Made by a program: the position numbers and the translations under genes. DNA of 64,000 nt from Gemmatimonadota bacterium (GTDB taxonomy: Bacteria; Gemmatimonadota; Gemmatimonadetes; Gemmatimonadales; GWC2-71-9), in assembly GCA_040388535.1 (NCBI GenBank), contig JAZKBR010000001.1, positions 145,764-209,763 of the forward strand, given 5' to 3'. Under the pieces are notes generated by a model, which was not told the origin of the DNA, did not search any database, and was given only the letters and a program-made list of their open reading frames with translations. This document shows positions 6,047 to 52,031 of this stretch, piece by piece; the stretch's first letter is position 1, and each line of letters starts with the position of its first letter.

Positions 6047-6171
6047 CGAGAAGGGAGAAGGGAGAAGGGAGAAGCGCGAACGGCACAGGGGCCGGTATCT
6101 CATTGAGGTGCTGGCCTCGCGGCTTTCCTCCCTTCTCGCTTCTCCCTTCTCCCTTCTCGCTTCTCGCTTGT
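6047..6171. repeat. Composite element: inverted GAGAAGG arrays around a palindromic core
   Basis: Left arm 6047-6077 is a run of the 7-bp unit GAGAAGG and variants; right arm 6128-6171 is the inverse (CTTCTCC/CTTCTCG). Between them lies an imperfect palindrome at 6090-6116 (starts GGCCGGTA, ends GCTGGCC). The element sits between two co-directional permease genes of one cluster. The arrays contain no stop codons in frame, so the downstream reading frame extends back through them, but the MPYSEAL start at 6190 matches the paralogue N-terminus. Confidence 0.9.
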
Positions 6172-8684: not shown

Positions 8685-8818
8685 GAGAAGGGAGAAGGGA
8701 GAAGGGAGAAGGGATGCCGAAGTTGTCATCCTGAGCGAAGCGAGGGAGCCTGAGCTCCGCCCCCTCGCTTCGCTCAGGGTGACACGCTTCTCCCTTCTCC
8801 CTTCTCCCTTCTCCAGTA
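8685..8818. repeat. Composite element: GAGAAGG arrays flanking a REP-like hairpin
   Basis: The left GAGAAGG array (8686-8715) and right CTTCTCC array (8788-8817) form inverted arms. Inside, 8724-8784 is a palindromic REP-like unit: TGTCATCCTGAGCGAAGCGA on the left and its near-exact inverse (TCGCTTCGCTCAGGGTGACA) on the right. It begins directly at the stop of the last permease and ends about 10 bp before the BshB1 start, so it separates two transcription units reading the same way. Confidence 0.9.
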
Positions 8819-14058: not shown

Positions 14059-14190
14059 GGATGATGGATGACAGATGATGGATGACGGATGACGGATGAA
14101 AGCAAAGGGTCGGTAGCTCGGTGAGCTGTCGACCCTTGATCACAATCCGTCATCTGTCATCTGTCACCTGTCATCCGTCATCCATCATCC
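14059..14190. repeat. Composite element: GATGACA/GATGACG arrays around a palindrome, between convergent genes
   Basis: The left arm 14059-14099 is built of GATGACA/GATGACG/GATGATG heptamers; the right arm 14145-14190 is the inverse (TGTCATC, CGTCATC). The centre 14105-14137 is a strong palindrome (AAGGGTCG ... CGACCCTT with inner AGCTC/GAGCT). It lies between the convergent ppk1 and dnaJ genes and could act as a two-way terminator. The right arm runs into dnaJ and supplies its TGA stop at 14185-14187. Confidence 0.9.
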
Positions 14191-25068: not shown

Positions 25069-25186
25069 AGGAGAAGGGAGAAGGGAGAAGGGAGAAGGGA
25101 GAAGGGTGATGGGAAGGGGGAGTCTCTAGTCTCTAGTCTCAAGTCTCTAGTCTCCCTTCTCCCTTCTCGCCTCTCGCTTCTCGTCT
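25069..25186. repeat. Nested heptamer arrays: GAGAAGG, AGTCTCT, CTTCTCC
   Basis: 25071-25106 is a GAGAAGG array, 25121-25155 a run of five AGTCTCT units, and 25152-25184 the inverse CTTCTCC/CTTCTCG array. The outer arms are inverted repeats; the middle array is of a different heptamer. The right arm overlaps the 3' end of the YihY-family gene and encodes its last residues. No palindromic core is present here. Confidence 0.9.
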
Positions 25187-30114: not shown

Positions 30115-30894
30115 ATGCGGCTGACCCTGCTCGGGACGGGGACTTCGATGGGAGTCCCCCAGATCGGGTGCGGCTGCGCCGTCTGCCGGTCGGAGGATCC
30201 GCGCGACCAGCGGAGTCGCACGAGCGCCCTGATCGAAGCCGGTGGCGCGACAATCCTCATCGACACCCCGCCGGAATTGCGATTGCAGTTGCTGCGGAAC
30301 GGCGTCAAGCGAATCGATGCCGTCCTCTATACCCACCAGCACGCTGACCATACCCACGGGATCGACGACCTCCGTTCCTTCTCGCTCAAGCAGGGCGCCC
30401 CGCTGCCGCTCTACGGCCCGGCCGACACGATGGCACACCTTGGTCGGGCGTTCAACTACATCTTCGATGGCAGCATCGTACCGATCGCGGGCACATCGAA
30501 GCCGTCGCTCACGCTCAACCCGCTGCAGCCCGATCGCGCAGTGTCGATCGCCGGAGTCGAGGTATTGCCACTCCAGTTCGAGCACGGTCACGCGACCGTC
30601 TTCGGCTACCGCATCGGCGACGTTGCCTATCTCACCGATGTGAAGCGCGTGAACGAGGCGCAGCGCCAGCAGCTTGCAGGAGTGAAGGTGCTGGTGCTCA
30701 ACGCGCTCTGGTGGCGTGAACACCCGACGCACCTGTCGATCCCCGATGCGATCGAGGTGGCCCACGCGGTCGGCGCGGAACGGACCTACCTTACTCATCT
30801 CACCCACGAGACCGGTCATCGCGAGTTGCTCGCGAAGTTGCCCGCGGGCGTGGAACCAGGCCACGACGGCCTCGTGCTGGAGATCTTCCGATGA
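30115..30894 (+). CDS. MBL-fold metallo-hydrolase, PhnP-like
   Basis: A 259-residue metallo-beta-lactamase-fold protein. The N-terminus LLGTGTSMGVPQIGCGCAVC carries the cysteine cluster seen in PhnP-like phosphodiesterases. The metal motif is THQHADH (His-74, His-76, Asp-78, His-79), with further ligands in FEHGHATVFG, YLTDVK and THLTHETGH. Related proteins hydrolyse cyclic phosphates or phosphodiesters; the substrate here is unknown. It starts 3 bp after pyk and overlaps pgi by 4 bp (ATGA), so it is made with two glycolytic enzymes. Confidence 0.88.
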   Translation: MRLTLLGTGTSMGVPQIGCGCAVCRSEDPRDQRSRTSALIEAGGATILIDTPPELRLQLLRNGVKRIDAVLYTHQHADHTHGIDDLRSFSLKQGAPLPLYGPADTMAHLGRAFNYIFDGSIVPIAGTSKPSLTLNPLQPDRAVSIAGVEVLPLQFEHGHATVFGYRIGDVAYLTDVKRVNEAQRQQLAGVKVLVLNALWWREHPTHLSIPDAIEVAHAVGAERTYLTHLTHETGHRELLAKLPAGVEPGHDGLVLEIFR

Positions 30895-32264
30895 CCCTCC
30901 GCTTCGATGATGCCCTGATGACCCGTGACGCGCTTGACGGCGTCCACGGGCTCGACCCTGCCCTGCGCACCGCACTGGCCGAGCGTTTCCCGGCCGTTCA
31001 GGCCGAGGTTCGTCGCCGTCGCGCAACTGGTGACTACGGCTTTCTCTCGCTGGGGCAGCAGCCGGACACGGTGGCGAAGATCCAGGAGTGGGCCGCACTG
31101 CAACGTGGCCGCTTCGACCACATCCTCTTGCTCGGTATTGGCGGCTCGGCCCTCGGCCCCAAGGCGATGCTCACCGCGCTCAAGCCGCCGGCGTGGAACG
31201 AAGAGAGCCGGGACCGTCGCGATGGCTGGCCGACGCTTACCATCCTCGAGAATGTCGACCCCGTCAGTGTGACGGCTGCGCTCGACCGACTCGATCCGCG
31301 CCGCACCATCGTGAACGTGATTTCGAAGTCGGGCGGGACGGCGGAAACGCTGGCGCAGTATCTGATTGTCCGGCAGTGGCTCGACCGGGCTGTCGGTGCC
31401 GAAGCAGCCAAGGGGCATCTGGTCATTACCACCGATCCGGTGAAGGGCGCGCTGCGAGTCATCTCCAAGGCCGAGGGCATCGTGGCCTTCGATGTCCCGC
31501 CGGAAGTCGGCGGGCGGTTCTCGGTGCTCACACCCGTGGGGCTGGTGCCGGCGGCGCTGCTGGGGATGGACCTCGCGGAGATGCTGGCGGGCGCTCAGGA
31601 AGCGGTTGACGAGGCCGAGGCCGACACTTTGGACCGAAACCCCGCTGCGCGATGGGCGGCGCTCCAGCATCAGGCCCAGGCGACGCGCGCGGCCAACGTC
31701 CACGTGGTGATGCCCTACTCCGACCGGCTCCGCGACCTGGCCGAGTGGTACCGGCAACTCTGGGCCGAGAGTCTGGGGAAGCGGGTCGACCGGAGCGGCC
31801 TCGAAGTCCACCGTGGCCCCACGCCAGTGGGAGCCGTCGGGGCCACCGATCAGCACTCTCAGGTGCAGCTCTTCATCGAGGGTCCCTACGACAAGACGAT
31901 CACGTTCATCCGGGTGAAGGACACGGTCGGAATGCTCGAGATCCCGTCTCGAGAAGCGCGAAGCGAGAAGCGAGAAGATGACGCGCTTGAGACGCACCTC
32001 GGCTACCTCCGGGGCCAGACGCTCGGCAAGCTGCTCGATGAGGAGTTCCTCGCGACGCGCGAGGCGCTGCGCTCGCAGGGCCGGATGAGCTGCACCATCG
32101 AGCTCGACACGGTCGACGCCCGCCACTTCGGCCGGCTGCTGATGTTCTTCCAGATCGCGACCGGCTACGCCGGCATCTACTATGATGTCGATCCGTTTGA
32201 TCAGCCGGGGGTGGAACTCGGCAAAGTGCTGACGTTCAAGGCGATGGGGAGAGAGGGGTACTGA
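30891..32264 (+). CDS. pgi: Glucose-6-phosphate isomerase with a repeat-derived insert
   Basis: A 457-residue PGI of the short bacterial type. Sugar-phosphate-binding SIS domains are visible: LGIGGSALGPKAML, VISKSGGTAETLAQYL, GGRFSVLTPVGL and, near the end, TIELDTVDARHFGRLLMFFQ. It interconverts glucose-6-phosphate and fructose-6-phosphate. Unusually, 31949-31977 is an array of GAGAAGC-type heptamers lying in frame; it encodes the charged stretch SREARSEKREDD (about residues 353-364) between a core strand and the next helix. The gene starts inside the MBL stop and ends directly at a GATGACA array. Confidence 0.93.
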   Translation: MTLRFDDALMTRDALDGVHGLDPALRTALAERFPAVQAEVRRRRATGDYGFLSLGQQPDTVAKIQEWAALQRGRFDHILLLGIGGSALGPKAMLTALKPPAWNEESRDRRDGWPTLTILENVDPVSVTAALDRLDPRRTIVNVISKSGGTAETLAQYLIVRQWLDRAVGAEAAKGHLVITTDPVKGALRVISKAEGIVAFDVPPEVGGRFSVLTPVGLVPAALLGMDLAEMLAGAQEAVDEAEADTLDRNPAARWAALQHQAQATRAANVHVVMPYSDRLRDLAEWYRQLWAESLGKRVDRSGLEVHRGPTPVGAVGATDQHSQVQLFIEGPYDKTITFIRVKDTVGMLEIPSREARSEKREDDALETHLGYLRGQTLGKLLDEEFLATREALRSQGRMSCTIELDTVDARHFGRLLMFFQIATGYAGIYYDVDPFDQPGVELGKVLTFKAMGREGY

Positions 32265-32325
32265 GGATGACAGATGACAGATGACAGATGACAGACGACG
32301 GATGACGGATGACGGATGACGGATG
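32265..32325. repeat. GATGACA heptamer array, left arm
   Basis: Starts immediately after the pgi stop codon: about eight to nine units of GATGACA and GATGACG in tandem. With the inverse array at 32764-32829 it encloses the four-helix-bundle gene. Confidence 0.93.
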
Positions 32326-32404
32326 TCGTTTGACTGCGTTTCTCGATTGATGTTTGCGTTCGAATGCCTCGTATCCGCTCCATTCGCACCACTATCCATT
32401 CGAG

Positions 32405-32740
32405 ATGGCTTCCTACCGAGACCTCCGCACCTGGCTGATGGCGCGCAAGAGCGCCATCCAGATCCATCGCTACGCTGACTCCCATTGGACCCCTTCTCGC
32501 GCCGCCGCACTGGATCAGTTGCGGCGTGCGTCGCTGTCCGTCACACTCAACATCGCTGAAGGGCAGGCATTTGGCCCCGGGCCCCGCTGCAAGTTCCACC
32601 TGCGGGTCGCTCATGGGTCTGCGGTGGAGACAGCCGAGACGCTGGATTTTCTACGTGAACTCGGCGAACCAGTAGAGGATCTTCTCAGCTTGGCCCGACA
32701 GGTGCCGGCGTTGACCTACCGCCTCTGGAAGCGCAGCTGA
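32405..32740 (+). CDS. Four-helix-bundle protein (23S rRNA intervening-sequence protein family)
   Basis: A 111-residue protein with the family pattern: an early Y-R-D-L-x-x-W segment (residues 4-10), then helices with LRRASLSVTLNIAEGQAFGPG (the conserved SIxxNIAEG-type motif), FHLRVAHGSAVETAETLDFL and a last helix. The start is ATG 32405 (MASYRDLRTW). Members occur in intervening sequences of 23S rRNA genes and as stand-alone genes; the Avd protein of diversity-generating retroelements is a relative. No reverse transcriptase or rRNA gene is nearby. The gene is the only one between inverted heptamer arrays. Confidence 0.85.
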   Translation: MASYRDLRTWLMARKSAIQIHRYADSHWTPSRAAALDQLRRASLSVTLNIAEGQAFGPGPRCKFHLRVAHGSAVETAETLDFLRELGEPVEDLLSLARQVPALTYRLWKRS

Positions 32741-32763
32741 CCGGACCACCTGCCGTTCGTAAT

Positions 32764-32829
32764 CTGTCATCTGTCATCTGTCATCTGTCATCTGTCATCT
32801 GTCATCCGTCATCCATCATCCATCATCCC
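32764..32829. repeat. TGTCATC heptamer array, right arm
   Basis: About nine tandem units of TGTCATC, CGTCATC and CATCATC. It is the inverse of the array at 32265-32325 and lies just downstream of the four-helix-bundle gene. Confidence 0.93.
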
Positions 32830-32847: not shown

Positions 32848-32880
32848 GCAAAACCAAACGACCCCGCTTTCGCGGGGCCG
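32848..32880 (-). terminator. Terminator of the large BIG2 lipoprotein gene
   Basis: On the minus strand the stem CCCCGC/GCGGGG (plus-strand 32862-32877) is followed by TCGTTTGGTTTT. It lies 40 bp beyond the stop at 32920. The plus-strand flank also has a short T run (CGGTTT), so it may work for both directions. Confidence 0.7.
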
Positions 32881-32919
32881 TCGGTTTACAACAGATCCTG
32901 CAGTCAGCTTGTCAGCTGA

Positions 32920-41592: not shown

Positions 41593-42573
41593 ATGCGCAT
41601 TCCGGCCACCTCGCTCTCCCTGGCGCTCGGCGTCGCCCTCACTGCGGCCGCCCAGCAGCACCCGCCTCGCACCGTTGTGGAACACGTGATCCCGCGCGCG
41701 CGCAATTTCCCCCACGATCCGGCGGTCGGGGCCGACGGCATCGTCTGGTACACGGACCAGGTCAATTCCTACATCGGCCGGCTCGACCCGGCCACCGGGG
41801 TGATCACCGATACGCCGACGCCGACACCCCACTCCGGCCCACACGGAATCGAGGTCGCCCCCGACGGCGCCGTCTGGTACACCGGGCAGACGGCAGGTGT
41901 ACTGGGGCGGCTCGACCCGAAGACGATGGCGATTACCGAGTATCCGTTGCCGGACATCGCGAAGAATCCGCACACGCCGATCGCGCATCGTGGCCAGATC
42001 TGGTTCACCGACGCCAACAACAACACCTATGGCCGACTCGATCCTGCCACGGGAAAGGTCGATGTCTGGGAAGTACCCGTCCCTGGCTCGATCCCGTACG
42101 GCATGCGCTCGGCGCCCGATGGCTCGATCTGGATCGCCCACCTCGGCACCAACATGCTCGGTCACGTGAACAGCACGACGGGCCAGTTCACGCCGGTGCA
42201 GCTTCCCCACCCCGGCGCGCGACCACGCCGGCTCGCGGTGACTCCGGACGGCAAGGTCTGGTACACCGACAACGCCCGTGGCTTCCTCGGAATGCTCGAC
42301 CCCGCGACCGGGAAAGTGCGCGAGTGGGCCTCGCCAAGCGGCGCCGATTCCGGGCCGTACGGGATCGCGATCGGCACCGACGGCAGGCTCTGGTACAACG
42401 AGCAGTCGAGCAACCTGATGGTGGCGTTCGATCCGACCACCGAGAAAATGGAAACGGTCAAGATTCCCTCGGGGAATGCCGTGGTGCGGCATATGGTGAC
42501 TGATGTCGCGCGCAAACGCCTCTGGCTCGCGCTCAGCGGAAGCGGACGGATCGGGATGATTGACCTGAAGTAG
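41593..42573 (+). CDS. Secreted Vgb-like beta-propeller (streptogramin-lyase fold)
   Basis: A 326-residue protein with a signal peptide (TSLSLALGVALTAAAQQ) and six to seven repeats of the type DG-x-x-WYTD....GRLDPATG (for example DGIVWYTDQ, DGAVWYTGQ, RGQIWFTDA, DGSIWIAHL, DGKVWYTDN, DGRLWYNEQ). This is the beta-propeller of virginiamycin B lyase and NHL-type proteins. Secretion makes a true antibiotic lyase less likely; many homologues are of unknown function. It is flanked by heptamer arrays on both sides. The stop codon TAG directly precedes a GATGACA array. Confidence 0.85.
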   Translation: MRIPATSLSLALGVALTAAAQQHPPRTVVEHVIPRARNFPHDPAVGADGIVWYTDQVNSYIGRLDPATGVITDTPTPTPHSGPHGIEVAPDGAVWYTGQTAGVLGRLDPKTMAITEYPLPDIAKNPHTPIAHRGQIWFTDANNNTYGRLDPATGKVDVWEVPVPGSIPYGMRSAPDGSIWIAHLGTNMLGHVNSTTGQFTPVQLPHPGARPRRLAVTPDGKVWYTDNARGFLGMLDPATGKVREWASPSGADSGPYGIAIGTDGRLWYNEQSSNLMVAFDPTTEKMETVKIPSGNAVVRHMVTDVARKRLWLALSGSGRIGMIDLK

Positions 42574-42860
42574 ATGATGGATGACAGATGACAGATGACA
42601 GATGACGCAGGAGGGAGGACGGTATGTCATCCTGAGCGGAGCGACCGTAGGTCGCGAAGTCGAGGGAGCACCCTCCCCCCGTTGAGGCCACCTCCTTCGA
42701 CTGCGCTCGCCCTTCGTTGCACTCAGGGCAGGCTCTTCGGCTCGCTCCGCTCAGGATGACAACATCCACAATCCGTCATCTGTCATCTGTCATCTGTCAT
42801 CTGTCATCTGTCATCTGTCATCCGTCATCTGTCATCCGTCATCCGTCATCCGTCATCCTG
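42573..42860. repeat. Composite element: GATGACA arrays flanking an extended REP unit
   Basis: The left array is at 42573-42607; the right array, the longest in the window, is at 42772-42860 (about 12 units of TGTCATC/CGTCATC) and reaches to within 2 bp of the kdpE stop. Between them 42625-42761 is a REP-like palindrome: TGTCATCCTGAGCGGAGCGA on the left, GCTCCGCTCAGGATGACA on the right, with internal inverted pieces. It lies between convergent genes. The core resembles that at 8724-8784 but the arms are of another heptamer. Confidence 0.9.
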
Positions 42861-51908: not shown

Positions 51909-52031
51909 ATGGATGGTCGATGGTGGATGTCGGGTGACTGATGCTGGATTGTAGATGCTTTGATCCATCATCCACCATCCATCATCCACCATCCACCATC
52001 CATCATCCATCATCCACCATCCACCATCCCT
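51909..52031. repeat. Heptamer arrays of the GATGGTG/GATGATG type, inverted pair
   Basis: The right array 51962-52031 is about ten tandem 7-bp units of CATCATC, CACCATC and CATCCAC character (ATCCACC/ATCCATC). The left arm 51909-51957 is degenerate (GATGGATGGTCGATGGTGGATG). It lies between the DUF4153 gene stop (52036) and the kdp promoter region. The remaining 51840-51908 shows nothing recognisable. Confidence 0.85.

Follow-up and report, generated by a model that had tools for sequence, protein, structure and literature searches.

The window, by which we mean the whole stretch of 64,000 nucleotides that was analysed, carries behind pgi a small gene enclosed by two inverted arrays of heptamers. 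In the reading we prefer, to which we give a probability of about 0.55, this unit is a small selfish repeat element, REPtron-like and kin to the intervening sequences (IVSs) of rRNA, whose S23-family protein recognizes its own arrays. What is observed is the anatomy of the unit, its recurrence, the matching of protein and array, the dispersal of a gene's unit in its genome, and orthologous sites that are occupied in some congeners and not in others. The wider claim, in our eyes an even bet, is that of a mobile class free of any known transposase or reverse transcriptase, in which a four-helix-bundle protein of ~115-130 aa disperses its own heptamer or octamer arrays across bacteria. To this class the ribosomal IVSs, the S23 genes in operons such as the cas loci, and much of the so far unexplained surplus of heptameric repeats in bacteria would owe their common origin.

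The unit behind pgi

The unit begins 1 bp past the stop codon of pgi (TGA, 32262-32264), and the S23 gene, which runs from an ATG to a TGA and whose start codon, like those of the other S23 genes, is inferred, is the sole gene between the arrays (Table 1). The right array consists of 7.4 copies of ATCTGTC at 97%, followed by units of the ATCCATC type. Chance is excluded for these arrays, because GATGACAGATGACA is matched 36 times in the window at no more than 2 mismatches, against 0.40 expected from shuffles (maximum 3). The unit lies between pgi and the gene of a Big_2 protein. It meets the IVS criterion of terminal inverted repeats flanking an S23p ORF; the criterion of insertion in rRNA is not met.

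Table 1. Coordinates of the pgi-side unit, its neighbours and the gene-less units of the window
Feature	Position	Strand	Remarks
pgi (glucose-6-phosphate isomerase), upstream neighbour	30891..32264	+	
Left heptamer array, (GATGACA/G)8.6	32266..32325	+	94% matches
Leader, left array to start codon	32326..32404	+	79 nt; usually 55-130 nt in relatives
PF05635/TIGR02436 S23-family four-helix-bundle gene	32405..32740	+	111 aa; profile matches, AlphaFold2, Foldseek
Right heptamer array, inverse of left	32762..32828	-	
Terminator-like hairpin outside the unit	32851..32889	.	Kept past the pgi site in G002, G003, G005, G006, G007
Gene-less unit, inverted GAGAAGG arrays	6048..6169		
Gene-less unit, inverted GAGAAGG arrays	8685..8814		Right behind permease stop; site empty in four congeners
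Gene-less unit, inverted GATGACR arrays	14059..14191		
Gene-less unit, inverted GATGACA arrays	42573..42858		Palindromic interior

The protein scores 48.3 bits against PF05635 (cut-off 33.8) and 46.3 bits against TIGR02436 (cut-off 24), above the curated cut-offs across most of the profile, and is thus a member of both families. Its AlphaFold2 model has four helices (pLDDT 96.1), and Foldseek matches of this predicted model to 2gsc (TM 0.80) and 2rld (TM 0.84) satisfy the criterion of an Xcc0516-like four-helix-bundle fold. Codon-position analysis places the S23 protein under purifying selection. To our knowledge PF05635 has no known catalytic domain, which counts against the selfish-element reading, and we know of no function established for the S23/IVS proteins since 1993. 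The window protein carries the motif GxxRxxxSxxxNxxE published for S23 proteins (PMC3936711), and Xcc0516 itself forms a pentameric ring (PMC4990558). The preliminary description had placed the protein in the 23S rRNA intervening-sequence family, and its gene as the only cargo between a GATGACA array at the pgi stop and the inverse array; the profile scores confirm the one, and the sequence and gene calls the other. Its picture of a cassette-like, repeat-bounded unit is supported as well, with the movement of the unit as a cassette remaining an inference.

Recurrence, specificity and dispersal of the arrays

Inverted arrays are a common property of this gene family among the relatives. The sample comprised 94 PF05635 genes from 40 related genomes, many of them draft assemblies, and was the better-scoring part of the list; each gene was scored by aligning, without gaps, the 250 bp before it with the reverse complement of the 250 bp after it, and taking the best match. 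In 81% of the copies the inverted arms exceeded the highest of 282 mismatched-locus controls, a level attained by only 0.3% of 2020 other anchors in these loci; direct repeats above the 99th percentile were found for 7%. The arms have mainly period 7 (lags 7, 14, 21, 28) and secondly period 8. When the upstream arm of one copy was compared with the downstream arm of another in its genome, 1.1% exceeded the same level, all three cases coming from two pairs of sister proteins, and each copy therefore has a private unit. No inverted repeat was detectable in 19% of the 94 copies, which counts against the selfish-element reading; these copies may be decayed, domesticated or wrongly bounded.

The unit also follows the lineage of the protein. 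On the protein tree, which has few columns and many weak forks, the period (7 or 8) takes 3 changes, compared with 8-16 in 300 label shuffles, and the octamers fall nearly all in one clade (SH-aLRT 99), with heptamers elsewhere. Likeness of unit sequence likewise tracks protein identity (permutation p=0.002 for period 7 and p=0.0005 for period 8).

Furthermore, the unit of a gene is dispersed in the genome that bears it. The window genome (G000) has 227 GATGACR dimers, G005 has 5, and each of 59 others at most 1; GTGARAC dimers number 71 in G009 and 39 in G007, the two genomes with an S23 gene bearing that unit, and no more than 4 in each of 59 others. Support from GGTGTYA is weaker, with low counts of 12, 5 and 2 in the three genomes that have a gene with that unit and 3 in one other. 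The gene-less units of G060 are made of GCTATTG/GCTGTTG, the same unit as around the G060 gene (L066). The window genome has two PF05635 genes in total, the second of which lies on contig 7 between inverted GAGAAGG arrays, and the heptamers of both (GAGAAGG and GATGACR) also form array pairs elsewhere in the genome that enclose no gene. The REPtron criterion, inverted copies of a dispersed repeat on both sides of the gene, is met. Four genomes for which the search gave no PF05635 gene were sampled over 100 kb each (400 kb), and these samples held no inverted array pairs of period 5 to 11. Dispersal varies, as 100 kb from several gene-bearing genomes likewise held no gene-less units; the gene-rich G053 and G039 are among these, which counts against the selfish-element reading. 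The G000 stretches used for gene-less units were chosen around arrays, and the density of such units is therefore overstated; selection of that kind affected neither the window nor the samples from other genomes.

The gene-less units satisfy the MITE criterion of terminal inverted repeats. Their interiors are only partly homologous, unlike those of a MITE, since some share a TCATCCTGAGCG palindrome or a terminator type and others share none; this too counts against a selfish element. Neither the four gene-less units of the window (Table 1) nor the locus-specific ends that match both the protein lineage and the dispersed arrays of the genome had come into the view of the preliminary description.

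Several observations on the interiors and the stray arrays may be added. A palindromic repeat with TGTCATCCTGAGCGAAGCGA lies inside gene-less units at 8715-8786 and 42608-42770, and also in L159, L160 and L161; it occurs outside arrays as well, for instance behind pgi in G001, and is possibly a separate repeat family that uses the unit loops as safe sites. Related terminator-like hairpins of the GGGCCGRYATCTC..GAGGTGCYGGCC type are present inside three gene-less units (6075-6127, 14100-14144, and about 5108-5158 of L162). The mixed unit at 25070-25183, with a GAGAAGG array on the left and AGTCTCT then CTTCTCC arrays on the right, looks as if two heptamer families were nested. At 51963-52029 there is a one-sided ATCCACC/ATCCATC array (GATGGTG type); G000 has no gene with such a unit, and a gene on contig 54 of G005 carries it. 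Within the coding region of the window's pgi, an unpaired GAGAAGC/GAAGCGA heptamer array at 31950-31977 accounts for nine added in-frame residues that are absent from six congeners. Arrays can thus land inside genes and without an inverse partner.

Comparison of congeners at the pgi site, recognized by the common terminator and mostly by the same downstream gene, gives a view of gain and loss. The site is orthologous, as the hairpin outside the unit is kept in five of them (Table 1). An S23 gene is found on the pgi strand in G000 (GATGACA) and G003 (GAGAGAC), and opposite to it in G002 (GGTGAAC) and G005 (GAGAAGR); behind pgi there is no PF05635 gene in G006 and G007, which have other sequence, or in G001 and G009, which have another gene. 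The G005 protein at this site is nearest, at 65%, to the contig 7 protein of G000 (GAGAAGG), which sits at a different site, and the G000 protein at the pgi site is nearest, also at 65%, to the contig-54 protein of G005 with its GATGGTG-type unit. The heptamer unit goes with the protein and not with the place. The preliminary description had proposed searching for the same gene between heptamer arrays elsewhere and for empty sites behind pgi, and both searches turned out in its favour, the former through the contig 7 gene and the 81% of copies above, the latter through sites that lack the gene or hold different heptamers; a stable pgi neighbour without arrays, which would have refuted it, is not the pattern found in the congeners.

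A second site, between a permease gene and bshB1, has gene-less units after the stop codon in G000, G009 and G001, with three different heptamers, and no unit in G003, G004, G006 and G008, where a few to about 20 bp separate the genes. No target-site duplication was evident at this site by eye. Five S23 elements with different heptamers (L038, L044, L054, L056 and L061, from G008, G004, G007, G059 and G037) apparently occupy one further site, which adjoins hppA (membrane pyrophosphatase) and in three of them has a ychF-like GTPase on its other side (names read from sequence). It looks like a recurrent insertion site.

Beyond the relatives, a wide set of 83 further genes, picked by a conserved peptide and spread over many phyla of bacteria and archaea, was scored for inverted arms. 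The arms reached a score of at least 16 in 53%, against 0.6% of the background, and 37% were above the largest mismatched control; 41 genes had period 7 and 7 had period 8. Plasmid-borne S23 genes with inverted heptamer flanks occur in Nostoc, Anabaena, Calothrix, Geminocystis, Pseudanabaena, Stanieria, Azospirillum and Riemerella. Several such S23 genes lie inside operons, namely cas6/cas4, cas10/cmr3 and two ribonucleotide reductase genes. L165, L171 and L176 are heptamer-flanked S23 genes with cas6 and cas4, or cas10 and cmr3, on either side; S23 genes have been listed as cas-associated, with 18 counted in cas loci (PMC3936711). The Azospirillum gene among them (L178) lies inside a 23S (LSU) rRNA gene, with GACRGAG-type arrays at both ends, and is a classical IVS with heptamer ends. 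The Coxiella IVS carries 2-3 tandem GACAGAT repeats upstream of S23p, their number varying between strains (PMC4990558), and GACAGAT is a rotation of the GATGACA of the window unit.

The Xanthomonadaceae offer a case in which the repeat was known beforehand. A paper of 2015 described GGGAATC repeats and left their origin unexplained; at 70-75 sites in Xanthomonas they are paired in convergent, inverted orientation, a short distance past the 5' neighbouring ORF (PMC4692102). Arrays of this type flank, in inverse orientation, the S23 gene (relatives of XCC0516) in Xanthomonas and Luteimonas salinisoli, and GGGAATC dimers number 19-188 per genome in five Xanthomonadaceae, compared with 0 or 1 in 15 other genomes. 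The gene has accB and accC as its two neighbours in Xanthomonas, Luteimonas and Dokdonella (names read from translated ends); that it stays at this one site across genera counts against the selfish-element reading. An S23 gene with its own dispersed repeat, recurring in many bacterial phyla, points to a previously unrecognized self-spreading element.

How the element may spread, and rival readings

In the mechanism we propose, the autonomous part would be one S23-family gene between inverted arrays of a heptamer that its lineage recognizes. An oligomer of the S23 protein would bind its cognate arrays, either in the DNA or in the RNA hairpin that they form, and would help in trans to plant further arrays, and array pairs without a gene, at other places in that genome. 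Most of these would come to lie directly after stop codons, where the harm may be small. Cutting and joining would probably be left to host enzymes, since the four-helix-bundle protein has no known nuclease. The ribosomal IVSs would be elements of this kind that reside in 23S rRNA. Binding of protein to array, action in trans and mobility are all inferred; no transposition or excision product was seen, which counts against the selfish-element reading.

Other engines and histories were considered and set aside. A reverse transcriptase, suggested by the kinship with Avd, is ruled out as the engine by the absence of RVT_1 from G000, G009, G007, G036, G053 and G060, and a transposase of the RAYT/IS200 type is not required, as Y1_Tnp is absent from G009, G053, G060, G039 and G050, which are rich in arrays or genes. 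A classical MITE with a conserved interior does not meet the criterion of homologous interiors. Arm-to-arm copying as the source of arm identity is rejected because the variant heptamers of one arm do not recur in mirrored order in the other, a finding that counts against the selfish-element reading as well. Long-term vertical residence at pgi is contradicted by heptamer, orientation and protein affinity, and phage carriage found zero matches among 50,697 phage records.

The main rival, which we hold to be unlikely without being negligible, is a host system that acts at the level of RNA. Array pairs would then be 3'-UTR hairpins for termination, stability or processing, S23 would be a co-evolved hairpin-binding factor with a hairpin on its own mRNA for autoregulation, and nothing would be mobile beyond ordinary recombination. 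Several properties of the units speak for it: they begin a few bases past stop codons; the window unit folds as RNA into a single long hairpin (-259 kcal/mol, z = -7.2); RNase III processes the hairpins that IVS RNAs form (PMC4990558); and polarity is fixed with the G-rich arm inward, as 15 of 15 opposite-facing neighbouring array pairs in the G000 stretches face inward and 82 of the 89 units with unequal G and C are G-rich reading toward the gene. However, separate units for the individual gene copies are not something that a host regulon would require. The gain and loss of species-specific arrays at orthologous sites, the multiplication of S23 copies up to 12 per genome, the presence in 23S rRNA and the array in the pgi coding region all look parasitic.

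A hairpin-targeting parasite is slightly harder still to credit. Here the arrays would spread by themselves, through slippage and template switching, and the S23 element would insert into hairpin loops, using heptamer pairs just as it uses the helices of 23S rRNA. IVSs do occupy hairpin loops of 23S rRNA (PMC4990558), and gene-less units often have another hairpin or palindrome inside, but this account leaves unexplained why the length and sequence of the unit follow the protein lineage, why the gene's own unit is dispersed, and why array pairs are lacking in gene-free genomes. The accidental placement of a stable chromosomal gene beside neutral simple-sequence repeats, for which one could cite how common heptamer repeats are among bacteria (PMC4692102), is already refuted by matched inverted arms in 81% of copies against 0.3% of the background and by congeners in which the gene is absent, flipped or elsewhere.

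With the selfish, array-recognizing element as the preferred reading, three questions converge, namely the role of the S23/IVS protein, the mobility of IVSs, and the richness of bacteria in heptameric tandem repeats. Should the link prove right, genes annotated as 'four helix bundle protein', which run to thousands, would belong to a widespread selfish element, each gene's heptamer would be legible from its flanks, and the match of protein and repeat would offer a direct test of binding. The S23 genes in cas operons (PMC3936711) would, on the same condition, shift from possible CRISPR accessories to possible insertions.

Comparison with known systems

The Avd protein of diversity-generating retroelements shares the fold, with Foldseek matches to the DGR RNP structures 8ub7 and 8ub8 at TM of about 0.7. 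The RVT_1 reverse transcriptase of such an element is present neither in G000 nor in most relatives, and that criterion is not met.

Heptameric simple-sequence repeats have been described as GGGAATC in Xanthomonas, as STRRs in Nostoc and Calothrix, and as TAACTGA in Beggiatoaceae (PMC4692102, PMC4679880). These are intergenic heptamer arrays like ours, and S23 loci of Nostoc, Calothrix and Xanthomonas have inverted heptamer flanks; the difference is that neither an associated gene nor a mechanism of dispersal is named in those papers. Among open-licence papers, the only ones searched, no literature linking an S23 gene to dispersed heptamers was found.

The REPtron, a tnpA-REP/RAYT gene with its cognate REPs (PMC8266576), resembles the S23 units in its one gene, in the inverted copies of a lineage-specific repeat at the flanks, in the scattering of that repeat genome-wide, and in the co-variation of protein and repeat. 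Two of its criteria are not met: S23 is a four-helix bundle and no Y1/HUH transposase is encoded, and the repeats are tandem heptamer or octamer arrays instead of GTAG-tagged palindromes.

From the IVS with an S23p ORF known in Leptospira and Coxiella, the window unit differs by its place between protein genes instead of in rRNA, by its many copies per genome in relatives, and by cognate arrays dispersed without the gene. The two agree in the protein family, in the single ORF, in the terminal inverted repeats, and in a similar total size of about 430-560 nt.
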